A stretch of 27,824 nt of DNA. It comes from a virus. Shown here in pieces: positions 2,151-27,824 of this stretch. The stretch lies in IMG/VR virus record IMGVR_UViG_3300046536_000184, positions 1-27,824 of that record; one strand, written 5' to 3'. The translations under genes were made by a program, and so were the position numbers. How positions within the stretch are numbered: the stretch's first letter is position 1; each line of letters begins with the position of its first letter. Under the pieces are notes generated by a model, which made no database searches, was not told where the DNA came from, and saw only the letters and a program-made list of their open reading frames with translations.

Positions 2151-2303
2151 ATGCAGACCTGCCCGCATTGCGGAGCGGAAAATTCCGCCGATTCCGCGAA
2201 CTGCTCAAACTGCGGCCAGCCGATGAAAGCGGACGAGCCGGATGACGCGGCCAGTTGGCCAGCCGCGCTGGTCGTGGCCGAATTGCTTCAGTCGGACCGA
2301 TGA
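2151..2303 (+). CDS. Small zinc-ribbon protein
   Basis: A 50-residue product starts with MQTCPHCGAENS and has a second pair in NCSNCGQ, giving a CxxC-x10-CxxC arrangement at residues 4, 7, 18 and 21. This is a classic short zinc ribbon of the zinc_ribbon_2 type. The rest (about 26-50) is an acidic linker and a short amphipathic helix. It has the best ribosome binding site in the area and ends in an ATGA overlap with the protease-capsid start. Whether it works as a protein (a scaffold, packaging or regulatory partner) or mainly as a leader that sets capsid translation is not shown by the sequence. The cysteine spacing is too regular to be chance. Confidence 0.72.
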   Translation: MQTCPHCGAENSADSANCSNCGQPMKADEPDDAASWPAALVVAELLQSDR

Positions 2304-4255
2304 TCCGCAAGAAGGAGAAAGCGGCGCCGCCGCCCGCCGGCGACCCGCAAGAGTTCGTCATGTCCGACGGCAGCGTCGACCGCATGGGCGACGTGATCGA
2401 CCCGGACGGCTGGCTGCTCGACAATTTCCGCAAGAACCCGGTGGCGCTGTTCGGCCACGATTCGAGCTTCCCGATCGGCAAGTGGTCCGATGTCGGCGTT
2501 CGCCGCGGCGCACTCACCGGACGGCTCGACCTCATGGACCCGGTCTCCGACCGGCAGCGCGAGATCAAGGCCGCGGTCGATGCCGGGGTGCTCCGCGCGG
2601 TCTCGGTCGGGTTTCATCCCAGCAAATACGAGCCGCTTGAAGGCTCCAAGAACGGTGGCCTGCACTTCCTCGAACAGGAACTCGTCGAGTGCTCGCTCGT
2701 CAGCGTGCCCGCTAACGCGAATGCCTTGGCGATTGCCAAGTCCATCGGACTATCCCGCGAGACGCAAAGCCTGATCTTCGGCGTGCCAGCCGAACCGGAT
2801 CAGCAAGGCTCCCCGCGGCCCATCGGCGTGCCAGCCGGATCAGACACCCTCATCCGAAAGCACAAACCGATGAACCAGCTCAGCGAACGCATCCAAGCCA
2901 AACAGACCGAACTCGTCGCCATGCGCGACCAGTTGACCAGCATCGACCCCGACGAATCGTCGAAGATGGACGATCTCACCCTGCGTATCGAGGAAGCGCA
3001 GAACCTTATCGCCACCTGGGAACGGGCCGAGAAGGCGCTCGGTGCCACGGCAAGCGAAGCCATCAACGTCCCGGCGGCCCGCACCACGGTCTACGCACCG
3101 AACCAGCCGCTGCCGGCAAGCGCACCCAAAACCTGGGCGCAGCCGAAAAAGAAGGAGGAGCCGGGATATCTGTACCTGCGCCACATGGCCTGCGTGGCGC
3201 TGTCGCACATCACCAAGAAGCCGATCGATGTGGTGATGCAGGAACGCTATGGAAGTTACGGCGATTTCGACGTTACCCGCGGGGTCAGCGACTGGTTTAT
3301 CCGCGCCGCCAGCGCGCCGGCAACGATCGGCGGCGCGGGCTGGGCCGACACCCTCGCCACCACGACATATGGCGAGTTCCTCGATCTGCTCTATCCCGGC
3401 TCGGTCTATGGGCCGCTGTCGTCCTACGGGTTCAGAGCAACCCTCGGGCGCTTTGCGGTGCTGTCGATGCCGACCCGTGTCACCACACCCACGGTGGCGG
3501 GCTCGTTCATCGCCGAGGGCGCGCCCATCCCGGTGCGGCAGGCGGCCTTCACGCCGATCACCATCGGCCTGAAAAAGATGGCGGTGATCACGTCGTACAC
3601 GCGGGAAATCGCCGAGCATTCCAACCCGCAGATTGAAGCCATCCTGCGCTCGCTGATCATGGAAGACACGCATATCGCCATCGACACGATCCTCTTGGAC
3701 GCGACGGCGGTGAGCGGCGTGCGACCAGCCGGATTGCGCAGTGGCGTTGCCGGCCTGACACCGACGGCCGGCGGCGGATTCACCGCGCTGGTCGGCGACA
3801 TCAAGCAGATGATCAACGTTCTGGCCTCCGCCAATTCGTTGCGTTCGCCGGTGTGGATCATGCACCCGTCGCAGACCAACTCGATCGGGCTGACGGCGAC
3901 CGCCAACGGCGTTTTCCCGTTCAAGCAGGAAATCGACGGCAAGATGCTGCAAGGCTACCCGGTGATCGTTTCGTCCACGCAGACCTCGGGGACGGTCATG
4001 CTGCTGGACGCCGCCGACTTCATGTCGGTGAGCGGAGACGACCCGCGCTTTGAGGTCAGCGACCAGGCGACGCTGCACTTCGAGGACACCACACCGCTGC
4101 AACTGACGACCGGCGCACAAGGCTCGGGTGTCGTCGCAACGCCGACGCGGTCCATGTACCAGACCGACAGCCTGGCGCTGCGCATGATCCTGCCGATGAA
4201 CTGGGCCATGCGCCGCAGCGGCGTGATCGCCTGGATCGCGGCGGTCACTTGGTAG
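2300..4255 (+). CDS. HK97-type prohead protease fused to major capsid protein
   Basis: One 651-residue polypeptide carries both the maturation protease and the capsid subunit. The protease half (about 18-150) is an S78/U35-type prohead protease: the likely catalytic His53 is in FGHDSSFPIG, Ser102 is in RAVSVGFHP, and the conserved ECSLVSVPANANA strand is at about 130-142. A linker with two GVPA segments (161-180) leads into a coiled coil at about 191-245, like the HK97 delta domain, which is normally cut off after assembly. The HK97-fold capsid domain fills about 290-651. The start chosen is the ATG at 2300, which overlaps the zinc-ribbon stop. A longer frame opens upstream but would overlap that gene deeply. 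An in-frame ATG at 2870, exactly where the delta-like region begins, could give a capsid-only product of 461 residues. Confidence 0.92.
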   Translation: MIRKKEKAAPPPAGDPQEFVMSDGSVDRMGDVIDPDGWLLDNFRKNPVALFGHDSSFPIGKWSDVGVRRGALTGRLDLMDPVSDRQREIKAAVDAGVLRAVSVGFHPSKYEPLEGSKNGGLHFLEQELVECSLVSVPANANALAIAKSIGLSRETQSLIFGVPAEPDQQGSPRPIGVPAGSDTLIRKHKPMNQLSERIQAKQTELVAMRDQLTSIDPDESSKMDDLTLRIEEAQNLIATWERAEKALGATASEAINVPAARTTVYAPNQPLPASAPKTWAQPKKKEEPGYLYLRHMACVALSHITKKPIDVVMQERYGSYGDFDVTRGVSDWFIRAASAPATIGGAGWADTLATTTYGEFLDLLYPGSVYGPLSSYGFRATLGRFAVLSMPTRVTTPTVAGSFIAEGAPIPVRQAAFTPITIGLKKMAVITSYTREIAEHSNPQIEAILRSLIMEDTHIAIDTILLDATAVSGVRPAGLRSGVAGLTPTAGGGFTALVGDIKQMINVLASANSLRSPVWIMHPSQTNSIGLTATANGVFPFKQEIDGKMLQGYPVIVSSTQTSGTVMLLDAADFMSVSGDDPRFEVSDQATLHFEDTTPLQLTTGAQGSGVVATPTRSMYQTDSLALRMILPMNWAMRRSGVIAWIAAVTW

Positions 4256-4324
4256 GACGACGGTACACCTGGCGCATTCCGGCGCAGTGGTTGCTGCGCC
4301 GGATCGTCACCAAAGGAGACGATG

Positions 4325-4822
4325 ATGCCGGAAGAGGATCTGAGCCCGTATCCGAGCCAGGCGGAACTCAACGAGATGGTGCTGGCCGCCGTCCTGACGG
4401 CGCCGCTGGGGGAGCCGAGGATCGTCGCACGCGACGGCGACGACCTCACCCCGGTGATGACCCAGGCACAAAATGATTTCGCCATGCTGGTCGCCTGCGG
4501 CCCGCCGCCGGAGTCGCTGCCGCCGATCAACATCGACGTTCCCAGCGTGCAGCCGCAGAGTGCTGCGCCCGGTGAAACGCTCACCTGCACGATGGGAAAC
4601 TGGACCGGCGAGCCGACCGCTTACGCCTACCAATGGCTGAGCGACGGCGAGAGCGAGCTTGGCACCGGCGACAGCTATACCGTGGTCGCGAGCGACAGCG
4701 GCACCAGCATCAGTTGCGTCGTCACCGCGACGAACGCCAATGGCTCGACCGCGGCGCCGCCATCGAATGCGGTCGCGGTGAATGGCAATGGCGCCACCCG
4801 CGGCCGCAGCCGCCGTGGCTGA
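4325..4822 (+). CDS. Ig-like domain protein, probable capsid decoration
   Basis: The 165-residue product has an unrecognised acidic N-terminal part (about 1-63) and a C-terminal Ig-like fold of about 90 residues. That domain shows the typical pattern of a cysteine strand in GETLTCTMGNW, the tryptophan strand YAYQWLSDG, a GDSYTVVASDSGTSISC strand and VTATNANGST. Such domains decorate phage heads and tails and are thought to bind surface sugars weakly. Its place between capsid and portal favours a head decoration role, as in Hoc-type proteins; this is inference. AGGAG at 4314-4318 is 6 bases from the ATG at 4325 and only 3 from the ATG at 4322, so I prefer 4325. The end overlaps the portal gene by up to 41 bases. 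Confidence 0.7.
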   Translation: MPEEDLSPYPSQAELNEMVLAAVLTAPLGEPRIVARDGDDLTPVMTQAQNDFAMLVACGPPPESLPPINIDVPSVQPQSAAPGETLTCTMGNWTGEPTAYAYQWLSDGESELGTGDSYTVVASDSGTSISCVVTATNANGSTAAPPSNAVAVNGNGATRGRSRRG

Positions 4823-6242
4823 ATCGACGGCGCTGGCGCGGGTGCTGTCGGCCGCCGGCCGCATCCTCCGCCCGCGCGCCAAGCAGCAGATCGGCAACGG
4901 CTACCTGCTGCCGCTCGGCGGCGGCATCATCCCCACCGACTGGCCGCTGAATTACTGGCAACTCGGCTATAACCCGCTGCCGGCCGGCGGCGGCGCGATC
5001 GTCTATGCCTGTGTCGCGGCCTATTCCCAAACGACGGCAATGTGTCCCGGCACGCACTGGCGCTCGACCGGCGATGGCGGCCGCGAGCGGGTGGCGAATT
5101 CGGCGCTCTCGCGCATCCTCAAGCGGCCGAACAGCTATCAGTCGATCAGCGACTTCCTGCTCAACCTCACCGGCGCGCTTTACGACACCGGCAACGCTTA
5201 TGCGTTGGCGCTGCGCAACAACCGCTACGAGGTCAGCGAGCTGCACCTGATGGATTCGCGGATCTCGGCACCGCACGTCGCGGTCGATGGCAGCGTCTAT
5301 TACAACGTCGCCGGCAACCCGATGGTCGAGGCCAGCATCCCGCACGATGCGCTGACCGCGGTTCCGGCGCGCGACGTGCTGCACATCCGGCTCGATACCC
5401 GCAACATGCGCTACCGGCCGCTGATCGGCGAGCCGCCGCTGGTCAACGCAATGACCGACATCGCCGCCTCGAATGCGATGGTGCAGCAGGCATTGGCCTT
5501 CACGGCCAACCAGGCGCGCCCGAGCGGGGTGCTGACGACCCCTGACCTCTTTGACGAAGCGCAGGTCGCCGCGACGCGGGCGCGCTGGGAAGAGGTCACC
5601 AGCGGCGCCGGCGCCGGCCGCACGCCGATCCTCACCGGCGGCCTCAAATGGGAGCAGACCGCAACCACCAGCCGCGACGCGCAACTCGCCGAAATGCTCC
5701 AGATCACCGACGGCCGTATCGCCTCGGTCTATCGCATACCGCTGGAGCTGCTCAGCTTGTTCACCGCCGGTGCGCCGCCCAAGGCCGCCTCGACCGAAAA
5801 CCTCATGCGCTTCTGGATCGCCTCGGGGCTCGGCTTCTGCCTCAACCATATCGAGGAAGCGGTCGGCAATTTCTTCGGCCTCGGCGGTTGGCCGGACGAA
5901 TACCTCGAACTCGACACCGCGGCGCTGGAGCGCAGCAACCTGAAAGACCGCATCGCGGCGCTGGCGCAAGGTGTCCAAGGCGGCATCTTCTCACCCAACG
6001 AGGCGCGCCGCCTGGAAGACCTGCCCGAGGCGGAAGACGGCGACGAGCCCAGGGTGCAGCAGCAGGTCGTGCCGCTCAGCGCCTGGTCGGCGACGCCGCC
6101 CGCGACCTCGGCGCCCGCCTCTGCACCGGCCGCACCGCCCGAGGATTCGCCTTCCGCAGACTCCGGGGATGTGCCGAATGCCAACCAGTTCGCCGCCAGC
6201 ATCCTGCGCGCCGCCAATGACCACAGCCGAACTCTTCACTGA
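4782..6242 (+). CDS. Phage portal protein, HK97 family
   Basis: Forms the ring at the special capsid vertex through which DNA enters and leaves, and on which the connector and tail are built. The 486-residue product carries HK97/SPP1-type portal features: [12 protein letters not shown] (about 110-121), a [16 protein letters not shown] segment (about 127-142), LHLMDSRIS (about 149-157), the [14 protein letters not shown] region (about 207-220), and a late [10 protein letters not shown]-like stretch. The C-terminus (about 425-486) is rich in Ala and Pro and is probably disordered. The start is uncertain: ATG 4782, ATG 4788 and GTG 4815 are all in frame and none has a strong Shine-Dalgarno site. 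It sits after the capsid gene, the reverse of the usual HK97 order. Confidence 0.9.
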
Positions 6243-22800: not shown

Positions 22801-22847
22801 CCTTGCACAAACGCCTTGCGGGGAAGCGCGCGGCAGCCCGTGCAAGG
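22801..22847 (-). promoter_or_regulatory. Candidate hairpin over the ribosome binding site of the secreted protein
   Basis: On the - strand mRNA, CCTTGCAC pairs with GTGCAAGG, and the second arm runs into the AAGGGAA that is the likely ribosome binding site for the GTG at 22790. A second GCAAGG in the loop could pair with the same CCTTGC, giving two exclusive structures. The idea that it controls translation is inferred from the sequence only. Confidence 0.35.
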
Positions 22848-22912
22848 AGACCGGGGGTTCGGGAGCTACCCTAGCCGCGCTCCCGATACTTGGCGGCTGG
22901 CGCCGCCGCCCG

Positions 22913-22941
22913 CTTGATAGACCCGGCCAAAAACTTGATAG
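22913..22941. repeat. Direct repeat CTTGATAG spaced 21 bp
   Basis: Two identical copies of CTTGATAG start 21 bases apart, that is two helical turns on the same face. They lie between the small acidic gene and the secreted protein gene. This could be a site for a DNA-binding protein, but eight bases twice is weak evidence alone. Confidence 0.35.
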
Positions 22942-22978
22942 TTAGCGCGCCGGGCTAGTAGCCACGATGTCGGCGCGG

Positions 22979-23251: not shown

Positions 23252-23593
23252 GGCCGCATCCTCGGCAGATGATCCGGGTTCTCCGACCGGATCCGCGCCA
23301 CCTTCTCGGGCGGCACGACGTGGCAAGCGGCGCCGGGGGGTTGTCGGGCGGCCGTCATGGCGAGCGAACCATTGCGGAACGCTTCCCCACGGCCTCCCCA
23401 CAACTGTGGGGAATGTTCCGCGCGCGTTCGCGGTTTTCGGTGCCGATCCGTTGTGTTCTGCGCGATGCGCCGGGTGGCATTAAGTGATTGATCATTCTAA
23501 TAGTTTCTACCGTTTCCGGGGGTTGCCGTCAGTGTCCTGCGCGGGTATCGACAATTTCAACAAATAAGTTCTGGTGCCGGTTAAGCATTTGAT
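23252..23593. other. Non-coding region with a long dyad, candidate attachment or operator region
   Basis: No gene is convincing here. The right half (about 23440-23593) is lower in GC than the rest of the window. The left half holds the long inverted repeat at 23374-23421. Beyond the right edge, inside the zinc-finger gene, two phased TCCCCACAG copies share the same core. The interval separates the integrase and zinc-finger pair from the small acidic gene and is where a phage attachment site could lie; no tRNA-like sequence was recognised in it by eye. Confidence 0.5.
23374..23421. repeat. Long inverted repeat with TCCCCAC core
   Basis: The left arm (23374-23390) is GCGGAACGCTTCCCCAC and the right arm (23406-23421) is GTGGGGAATGTTCCGC. 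They pair over 7 plus 8 bases with a small internal mismatch, leaving a 15-base loop. The loop itself has TCCCCACA, which pairs with the right arm too, so CCCCACA-AC-TGTGGGG (23396-23411) is an alternative tight hairpin. Direct TCCCCAC copies start at 23384 and 23395, 11 bases apart. It is not followed by a T-run. Confidence 0.62.
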
Positions 23594-24010
23594 TTACCCA
23601 GCTTTCGCCGAAGTCTCCCCACAGATTCCCCACAGTTTAAGCTGTTCCAACGCCCACGCTCGCTCTTCCGGCGTGGCTTGTTTCATCAGGCGCGCAAACT
23701 TCGCCTGCCACCACGAAGTCGACGGGCGGCGCCGGAGCCTGCTTTCGGCGAGCAGACAGCCGCAGGATCTGGTCTTGCCGTATCTGACGTGATTTAGCTT
23801 AGCTTTATGCAGCTTTCCGCAATCGCACAGGAACTCCCAGGAGCCTGGGCTGGCATACCGTACCGCCACCAAACGCCCGAACCGCTGCCCGGCAATATCC
23901 TTGCGTAAGGGGCTCGGACCGCGCGGCTTCCCCTTCGGCCATCTCGGCAGGAATTGTGGCGGCGCATCGAACGCCTCTATCAGCTCCTGTACCTCAGTCC
24001 CTATTTTCAT
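23594..24010 (-). CDS. Small zinc-finger protein, SCGCL type, coupled to integrase
   Basis: The 138-residue product has the pattern of a DNA-binding zinc ribbon found next to homing and HNH-type nucleases: GQRFGRLVAVRYASPG (about 41-56), then WEFLCDCGKLHK and RSCGCLLAES. The four cysteines are at about 62, 64, 83 and 85 (CxC and CxC). The rest has a basic start (PKGKPRGPSPLRKD), an arginine-rich stretch and a C-terminal helix (TPEERAWALEQLKLW). No HNH, GIY-YIG or other nuclease motif is seen, so it appears to be the DNA-binding part alone. The ATG at 24010 overlaps the integrase stop by 4 bases and has a perfect GGAGG at 24016-24020, so it is cotranscribed with integrase. Confidence 0.68.
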   Translation of the reverse strand: MKIGTEVQELIEAFDAPPQFLPRWPKGKPRGPSPLRKDIAGQRFGRLVAVRYASPGSWEFLCDCGKLHKAKLNHVRYGKTRSCGCLLAESRLRRRPSTSWWQAKFARLMKQATPEERAWALEQLKLWGICGETSAKAG

Positions 24011-25020
24011 CGTTTCCTCCCCAGCCCTGCGAGTGCGTGGCGCACGGTGGCCTCGTCCACGCTCTGGTAGCGAACGCTCGACCGGGGATCGAGGTGATCC
24101 ATCACCTCCATGATAGTCCGCAGCCCGTTGCCCTCGGCGTTGAGCCAGCGCCCGACCGTGTGCCGCGCCATGTGCGGCGTGAACCGGACACCCAGCCGCT
24201 TCGCGTAGGGCATCAGCCACGCATAGACGTGGTTGCGCTTGCGCCACGGGAAGACGTACTCGCCGCGCTCGGCCAGCGGTATCGCGGCCAGCGCCTCGAA
24301 CACCTCGTCGTGCAGGGGCTTGTTGCGCCATTCCTGCCGCTTTTGCACCCACAGCTCGACGGTTCTCCGCGGTAGGTCGATCTTCTCCCAGCGGACACCG
24401 AGCGCCTCGGTGACGCGGTTCCCCTGGCGGAAGATCCACAAGAGGAACAGCCGCTCGTAGCTGCCCATCGGCTGCGAGTTGATCAGGGTTTCCGCGACCG
24501 CATCCGACACCGATCGCGTCTCGGGCTTCTTCCTGGCGAATTGCGAAATCTTCAGCCACTGACACCAGCCGTTGCGAGCGGCGTAGTGGAGGACCGCCGC
24601 CGCCGGGATGATCACCGCGTCGTTGCGGCTGCTCAGCGTCGTGTGCGAATACAGCTCGTTCGCGAGGTTGATCACGTCCTGCGCGCTGATGCTGGCGAGC
24701 GTCCTGTCGCCGAGCTGCGCCACCAGCTTCTCGATCTTGCGCTGAAGCGGCAGGTTCTGCGCCTGCGGGTCTTTCAGGTTCAGGTATTGCACAGCCGCTT
24801 GGCGGAACGTCGTGTTTTCTCCAGATCGAGGGATACGACTGGCCTCGTGCTCGGCCCAAAGCTCTCGTTCAGCTTGCTCCGCAGCTTGGCGTAGGAGCCG
24901 CGTCGGCGTACCGGACCCGAACTCGGTCGTGATCTCTCGGAGCTTTCCGGCGACTCGCCCTCGGAATATCCAGGTGCGATTTCCCTTGCGTTTGCCTGGA
25001 GCAACGAGGTTGAGCGACAT
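24007..25020 (-). CDS. int: Tyrosine recombinase, phage integrase
   Basis: Catalyses site-specific insertion and excision of the phage genome between attP and attB. The 337-residue product has an N-terminal arm-binding part, a SAM-like core-binding region at about 68-160 and a C-terminal catalytic domain. The catalytic set is visible: Arg202 in FRQGNRVTEAL, a likely Lys at 227 in VQKRQEWRNKPL, His283 and Arg286 in TPHMARHT, His309 in EVMDHLDP and Tyr318 in SSVRYQSV. The ATG at 25020 has GGAG 8 bases upstream; an in-frame extension to 25113 is possible but overlaps the HTH gene more. The stop overlaps the next ATG. All key residues are present, so it should be active. Confidence 0.93.
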   Translation of the reverse strand: MSLNLVAPGKRKGNRTWIFRGRVAGKLREITTEFGSGTPTRLLRQAAEQAERELWAEHEASRIPRSGENTTFRQAAVQYLNLKDPQAQNLPLQRKIEKLVAQLGDRTLASISAQDVINLANELYSHTTLSSRNDAVIIPAAAVLHYAARNGWCQWLKISQFARKKPETRSVSDAVAETLINSQPMGSYERLFLLWIFRQGNRVTEALGVRWEKIDLPRRTVELWVQKRQEWRNKPLHDEVFEALAAIPLAERGEYVFPWRKRNHVYAWLMPYAKRLGVRFTPHMARHTVGRWLNAEGNGLRTIMEVMDHLDPRSSVRYQSVDEATVRHALAGLGRKR

Positions 25021-25190
25021 CGGGTGTACTCCATAACTTGCGAAAATTCTTGTTCGGTCAGCACATAGGCGCGGCCCGGTCGCATCGGCGCGGAGCCGGT
25101 GCCGAGCATCCATTCAGCAATGCGTCGCTTTGCGGTGGCGGCAGAGACGCCCATGCGGGCCGCGATTTCCGGGACGGTAATGTGTGCCAT
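24780..25190 (-). CDS. Helix-turn-helix protein, excisionase-like
   Basis: The product starts AHITVPEIAARMGVSAATAK, a DNA-binding helix-turn-helix at about residues 4-25, then RRIAEWMLGTG and RAYVLTEQEFSQVMEYT, a short winged part typical of phage excisionases and MerR-like Xis proteins. ATG at 25190 is preferred, with GGA 8 bases before; the first in-frame ATG at 25202 has none. Only the first 57 or so codons look like real protein. The remaining 80 codons run inside the integrase gene in another frame and read as a Ser/Arg/Pro-rich shadow. The real protein may thus be shorter than the frame. TTGACT at 25216-25221 could be a -35 element but no good -10 is seen. Confidence 0.66.
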   Translation of the reverse strand: MAHITVPEIAARMGVSAATAKRRIAEWMLGTGSAPMRPGRAYVLTEQEFSQVMEYTRCRSTSLLQANAREIAPGYSEGESPESSERSRPSSGPVRRRGSYAKLRSKLNESFGPSTRPVVSLDLEKTRRSAKRLCNT

Positions 25191-25237
25191 TTGACGTTCC
25201 ATAAAATTAAACCTAAGTCAACGCGATCACCCAGCGG

Positions 25238-27140: not shown

Positions 27141-27824
27141 TCACACCTCGAACTGGACTTGCCGGCGACCGGACGGCGGCGGCGCCGGCTGTTCCGGCGG
27201 CGGCTCGGGCTCGTTCCCGCTGGCAAGGGGAGCCGCTCGGTCAAGCGCTGCCTCGTCGACAAGGCCGCGGGTGCGGCGCTGGCGGCGCTGTGGCTGCGCC
27301 TGAGCCTCGGCCTCGGGCTGCGCCAACGCGACCGCCTCGAACCAATCGGCGGGTTCTGACATGCCGTCTTTCAGGCTGGTGTAGATCTTCCGCAGCATCA
27401 CGACCTGGGCGGGCCGGATCGCGTCGAGCCGGCGCTGGATGCGCGCCTCGATCTGTGGCTGGGTGATGCCGAGCTCGGCGAAGGTCTCGATCAGCTTCTT
27501 GATGCCCTCGGGCGTCACGTCTGCCCTGGCGTGCATCGTCCGCTCACACTGTTCGAGCGCGGCTTCGGTGACATCGCCTGGGATGACGGTCAGCAGGACC
27601 GCGCGCTTCCGCCGCTGCCCAAAGTTCGCGATCAGCTCGTAGATGTCGCGCTCGTCGGTGAGCAGGTAGCCGCCCTTTTTGGTATCCCGCCAGTGTCTGA
27701 TCTGAAACTGCCTTTCGTCGTAATAGCCCGACTCCAGATCCCAGGCGTAAGCGACGCACTCCGAATATTCGCCCGAGCGCGACAACTCCTTGATGCCGCT
27801 CGCGATGTTGCCCCAGCGCTGCGC
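27141..27824 (-). CDS. Possible single-strand annealing or recombination protein, 5' end missing
   Basis: The gene runs off the right edge of the window; 227 residues are visible. The frame is open to the edge, and the visible start includes RWGNIASGIKELSRSGEYSE. Motifs in the body include AYAWDLESGYYDERQF, IRHWRDTKKGGYLLTDERD and IYELIANFGQRRKRAVLL, then VIPGDVTEAALEQCERTM, AIRPAQVVMLRKIYTSLKDG, and a long Pro/Glu/Ala-rich C-terminal tail. I recall this pattern from phage proteins placed in recombination modules, which are probably single-strand annealing-like, but cannot verify it here. Its place beside a Rad50-like ATPase supports a recombination role. Its function should be held as tentative. 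Confidence 0.5.
   Translation of the reverse strand, partial: AQRWGNIASGIKELSRSGEYSECVAYAWDLESGYYDERQFQIRHWRDTKKGGYLLTDERDIYELIANFGQRRKRAVLLTVIPGDVTEAALEQCERTMHARADVTPEGIKKLIETFAELGITQPQIEARIQRRLDAIRPAQVVMLRKIYTSLKDGMSEPADWFEAVALAQPEAEAQAQPQRRQRRTRGLVDEAALDRAAPLASGNEPEPPPEQPAPPPSGRRQVQFEV

Follow-up and report, generated by a model that had tools for sequence, protein, structure and literature searches.

The DNA analysed here (the window) is an IMG/VR virus record, 27,824 bases long, that represents a soil phage. Structural genes follow the capsid gene on the plus strand, and a leftward gene set that includes a tyrosine integrase begins at about 22,395. No tRNA was found in the window. The genes referred to below are:

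32-460, small terminase
625-2136, large terminase
2255-4255, capsid
24007-25113, minus strand, tyrosine integrase gene (PF00589, E 4e-20; phrog_1 integrase, E 3.3e-28)
24780-25202, minus strand, small helix-turn-helix (HTH) ORF that overlaps the integrase start (best, weak HTH match HTH_23, E 0.0004)

The catalytic domain of the integrase is clear, and the sequence resembles solved XerC- and XerA-like recombinases as well as Gp33 (5vfz). An N-terminal arm-binding domain (PF13356, Arm-DNA-bind_3) was matched below threshold (E 0.11; 13 bits, cut-off 27). The structure model is weak (mean pLDDT 41.7), and translation may start further inside the ORF. The small HTH ORF matched the excisionase model TIGR01764 (excise) with an E value of 0.045, under that model's cut-off. 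Judged from such matches, it possibly encodes an excisionase or a regulator.

Several collections were searched for relatives of the integrase. None was found in a species-genome collection of 84,980 genomes, and no relative in the collections of phages and plasmids exceeded 60% identity. In 398 genomes from the Escherichia coli phylum, the best matches reached 29-32% identity and came from six genomes, and a distant search with alignment A2 gave one further locus (L016, 29% identity). Searching IMG/VR with the integrase returned four contigs at 86-95% identity (L004, L005, L006 and L007), which serve as the relatives in the comparisons below. Another IMG/VR record, IMGVR_UViG_3300046817_000471 (L100), shares 8667 bases with the window at 100% identity and stops short of the region of interest; from this identity, the same phage has been assembled more than once. 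The window (27141-27824) and three of the four relatives (at the starts of L012, L013 and L015) also end about 2.7-3.1 kb upstream of the integrase gene, near the same gene and in separate metagenomes. An assembly or trimming break common to these records may explain the shared contig end.

Beyond the 3' end of the integrase gene lie two clusters of the heptamer TCCCCAC, which a sequence-only reading of this DNA had proposed as possible arm sites in attP, the phage attachment site. The plus-strand copies start at 23384, 23395, 23616 and 23627, as that reading had it, and the 11-bp step is exact in both direct pairs. Its inverted copy had to be shifted by one base and occupies 23406-23412, not 23405-23412. 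The window holds seven copies of TCCCCAC, five of them within 23384-23633 and the other two at 4930 and 16929. Single copies are mildly in excess, with seven against a shuffle mean of 3.25 (5 of 100 shuffles reached seven). The double motif TCCCCACN4TCCCCAC occurs exactly twice. When two mismatches were allowed, shuffled sequences contained such pairs at a mean of 0.26, and 3 of 100 shuffles reached two pairs. Among 1000 first-order Markov sequences, none contained two exact pairs and none contained five copies inside 260 bp. It is the arrangement of the copies, and not the number of single copies, that is unusual.

The segment between the clusters is AT-rich, in agreement with the lower GC content noted earlier. 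Positions 23476-23600 have 44.8% GC compared with 64.2% window-wide, and a value this low was reached in 11 of 27,699 sliding windows of 125 bp. The right cluster does fall within the 3' part of an ORF (23594-24010, minus strand) that had been read as a zinc-finger gene; this ORF matches a PHROG annotated as HNH endonuclease (phrog_374, E 5.8e-15).

The repeats lie in a conserved island of about 274 bp (23364-23637), which is 83-90% identical to L004, L005, L006 and L007 over 224-276 aligned bases. The island is found 3' of the integrase gene in all four relatives, and so in five of five phages when the window is counted. Conservation of the repeats near the integrases of relatives, on which the sequence-only reading had staked its proposal, was observed in all four contigs with identical spacing. 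These five phages are close relatives, and their conservation testifies for one lineage.

The surroundings of the island vary. The gap between the integrase gene and the island measures about 370 bases in the window, 1000 in L004, 500 in L005, 200 in L006 and 280 in L007. It holds the HNH-like ORF in the window, an ORF in L004 that is presumably a DNA methylase from its sequence, and short unrelated ORFs in the other three. Neighbours on the other side of the island also differ among the phages, and the borders of similarity to the relatives coincide with the arm repeats, or lie close to them, on both sides. Within 7-9 kb around each relative's integrase, all exact copies of the repeat lie inside the island. 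Searching viral contigs with the patterns of the two arms (P and P') returned the same four contigs only, and no attL or attR.

We considered whether the island could be coding sequence. One frame is open over 260 bp in three of the five phages, and ORFs on the integrase side extend into the island. Variable positions are spread over the three codon phases as 28/28/25, and because this shows no codon-phase bias, we rejected the island as a gene. A search for RNA families gave five matches with E values from 0.53 to 3.5, all far under their gathering scores, and blast of the island gave no match in phages.

The internal geometry of the island is fixed. Offsets refer to the integrase strand, and their zero point is the start of a 24-bp invariant run (23547-23570 in the window). 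The features, listed from the integrase side, are:

23364-23637, minus strand (integrase orientation), conserved non-coding island of about 274 bp, proposed attP
23627-23633, minus strand, GTGGGGA, putative distal P'-arm site, offset -63 in five of five phages
23616-23622, minus strand, GTGGGGA, putative proximal P'-arm site, offset -52 in five of five phages
23582-23594, minus strand, IHF-type site AATCAAATGCTTA, offset -24 in five of five phages
23547-23570, minus strand, invariant 24-bp run AACTTATTTGTTGAAATTGTCGAT, 25% GC, best candidate for the attP core
23481-23493, minus strand, second IHF-like site GATCAATCACTTA with one or two consensus mismatches, offset +77 in five of five phages
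23406-23412, plus strand, inverted extra copy, forming an 18-bp palindrome with 23395-23402
23395-23401, minus strand, GTGGGGA, putative proximal P-arm site, offset +169 in five of five phages
23384-23390, minus strand, GTGGGGA, putative distal P-arm site, offset +180 in five of five phages

GTGGGRA sites thus stand at -63, -52, +169 and +180 in all five phages without an indel. Nineteen of the 20 arm copies are exactly GTGGGGA, and the remaining one, at +169 in L006, is GTGGGAA. The two pairs have the same orientation and a fixed distance of 232 bp, and the 4-base spacers inside the pairs vary among phages. The longest invariant run in alignment A1 is the 24-bp run (57 of 20,000 column shuffles reached 24), and the second longest, GTGGGGAGACTT, lies at the proximal P'-arm site. 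The site at -24 is a perfect match to the IHF consensus WATCAANNNNTTR. Only two matches to this consensus exist in the whole window, and differences between the phages at -24 are confined to its free (N) positions.

We assigned the arms and the core from this geometry. The pair next to the integrase gene would correspond to P', because it is the pair with the perfect IHF site; in lambda, too, the arm with the IHF consensus faces the integrase gene. By lambda distances, the P' side puts the core at the invariant run; the P side would suit a position some 30 bp to the left of it. We prefer the invariant run, since a core that is shared with a single attB is expected not to vary, and one base at the alternative centre does vary (A, G or T). 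This run falls inside the interval 23440-23600 that had been predicted to hold the core. No convincing candidate for inverted core-type repeats was found.

The inverted copy raises the question of whether the clusters are operators. Under this explanation a phage or host regulator of the leftward genes would bind here, with the palindrome at 23395-23412 as its main site. The palindrome TCCCCACAACTGTGGGGA has no mismatch, and the next leftward ORF (MTAARQ start) begins a short distance from it. The inverted copy is present in the window, L005 and L007 (three of five phages), and L004 and L006, in which it is degraded, have lost the inverted half yet keep the direct pairs. The genes downstream vary among the phages, and an operator gives no reason for the conserved middle of the island. 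We therefore find it barely conceivable that the clusters serve as operators, and the inverted copy is probably accessory.

A replication origin was weighed as a second explanation. TCCCCA is a DnaA W-box of Caulobacter, described as a very weak site, and it is contained in every exact copy of the repeat (PMC4285127). The clusters would then be host DnaA sites and the AT-rich middle an unwinding element; an AT-rich middle with an IHF-type site is common at origins. An origin would be expected to have DnaA boxes close to the consensus TTATCCACA; with one mismatch allowed, the window contains a single such box, at 3852 and thus not near the island. An origin does not need a 24-bp invariant run outside the repeats, nor does it account for two pairs held in one orientation 232 bp apart. 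In addition, every contig in which the island was found encodes this integrase. Like the W-boxes of the Caulobacter oriC, the sites in the window contain the hexamer TCCCCA (PMC4285127); unlike that oriC, the window is without G-boxes or DnaA consensus boxes here, and its island is integrase-linked and has a non-repeat invariant core. An origin at this position is highly improbable. Slightly less far-fetched, though still a long shot, is that arm sites containing the W-box let host DnaA compete with the integrase, which would couple phage integration or excision to the replication cycle of the host.

These comparisons support the attP reading, in which the island and its repeats have been kept near the integrase gene at fixed spacing in four of four relatives. 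We consider it very likely that the TCCCCAC clusters are arm-type sites of an attP used by the tyrosine integrase at 24007-25113 in a lambda-like mechanism. A tyrosine integrase adjoins the island in all five phages. From their sequence, the repeats qualify as arm-type sites that flank the putative core on either side, and the IHF-type sites appear to lie between arms and core. The island would accordingly comprise two arm pairs (P and P'), the IHF sites, and a core that coincides with 23547-23570 or lies close to it. In this model the integrase would bind the arm pairs P' (23616-23633) and P (23384-23401) through its N-terminal domain. Bends introduced by IHF, or by another DNA-bending protein of this type, at 23582-23594 and probably also at 23481-23493 would allow arm-bound integrase to reach the core. 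Strand exchange with a host attB would then occur within the invariant run or close to it; we infer this step, because no attB was found and the integrase is absent from the genomes searched. The small HTH ORF might supply a directionality factor.

The sequence-only reading had allowed for excisionase sites as well as integrase arm sites. With the island still an attP, the TCCCCAC repeats could instead bind an excisionase (recombination directionality factor, RDF), a small HTH protein that binds cooperatively, bends DNA and favours excision. RDF sites are likewise direct repeats one helical turn apart, and the attP of phage 186 is described as carrying five of them at 10-11 bp (PMC7498355). 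A small HTH ORF with a weak excisionase match does lie over the integrase start in the window. The repeat pairs flank both sides of the core at fixed offsets in five of five phages, in contrast to lambda, where the Xis sites are all on one arm. An RDF array would be expected to hold at least three adjacent repeats on one arm; the island has two per side and no third tandem copy. The conserved unit of two also differs from the three adjacent operators that Apl is reported to need for efficient binding (PMC7498355). Because the pairs flank the core on both sides, we favour integrase arm sites and regard excisionase sites as unlikely.

We compared the proposed attP with described systems. The same plan is seen in the Cluster J mycobacteriophages (Omega, BAKA), in which attP lies 3' of the tyrosine integrase gene and direct-repeat arm pairs (about 10 bp) stand on both sides of a core that is identical among closely related phages (PMC3706429). 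The proposed attP of the window and its relatives shares these features. The arm sequence is TGCATAC... in the Cluster J account and TGTGGGGA here, the 44-bp Cluster J core matched a host tRNA gene whereas no host match was found here, and the gap between integrase and attP in our phages is variable and holds extra genes (PMC3706429). The lambda attP, for which the roles of arm sites, IHF sites and core-type sites are described, also has arm sites on both sides and IHF sites between arm and core (PMC4880445). The window differs from lambda in having two arm sites per side rather than two plus three, an unrelated arm sequence and no identified Xis or Fis sites. Like the window, the alphaproteobacterial element ICEMlSym-R7A from Mesorhizobium is described as having an attP of 283 bp with several integrase arm motifs; it is an ICE and not a phage, it has five arm sites with the consensus TGKTGGTATC, and its host and attB are known (PMC11963761). 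The kind of element in the window is therefore ordinary, with a plan that matches published attP sites, but its sequence is new and belongs to a phage group without a close relative in the phage and species-genome collections searched.

Searches for attB in genomes and plasmids with the invariant run or the island middle did not find one, nor did a lysogen with mappable junctions come to light. An exact 18-mer from the invariant run had 30 hits in the 84,980 species genomes, mostly in Clostridia and none in a record titled Pseudomonadota; judging from the record titles, we took these hits as chance. When 23420-23610 was compared with 385 genomes by blast, 68 of them showed weak matches; the five core-overlapping loci that were inspected (L078, L081, L087, L088 and L095) lie in unrelated reading frames and were rejected as attB candidates. 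Blast of the island middle against plasmids found nothing. A 17-mer occurs in 23 stretches of viral contigs, four of which are the known relatives, and the surroundings of the other 19 match at background level (35 to 50 of 117 positions). A published core is described as sharing only 10 bp with its attB (PMC10865867), so the missing attB weighs little. The host may also be absent from the genomes sampled so far.

An integrase and proposed attP pair, with the arm consensus TGTGGGGA and a fixed geometry, is now available for this phage group. Provided that the core is right, identification of the host and construction of an integration vector become possible uses. In this group, attP also stands out as a constant island with exchangeable genes on either side.

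The genes flanking the island in the relatives include those at 4023-5216 and 5555-7276 in L004 and at 3731-4321 in L006. From their sequences, we take these to be DNA methyltransferases and an orotate phosphoribosyltransferase. The attP thus seems to be placed between exchangeable genes. Further left of the island, a segment of 150 bp (22801-22950) is 90-95% conserved in L004, L006 and L007 and contains, at 22928, the only other perfect match to the IHF consensus in the window. A repeat of about 40 bp, ATGACCGCCGCCCGGCAAnnCCCCGGCGCCGCTTGCCACAG, forms the start of the ORF MTAARQxPGAACH and has its window copy at 23320-23361 on the minus strand. In the relatives it occurs at 5642 and 7270 in L012, at 6338 in L013 and at 3096, 3470 and 4452 in L014. 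A single relative has up to three copies. These lie to the left of attP, most of them where two genes meet, and could represent either a gene-start module that the phages share or a boundary at which exchangeable genes recombine.
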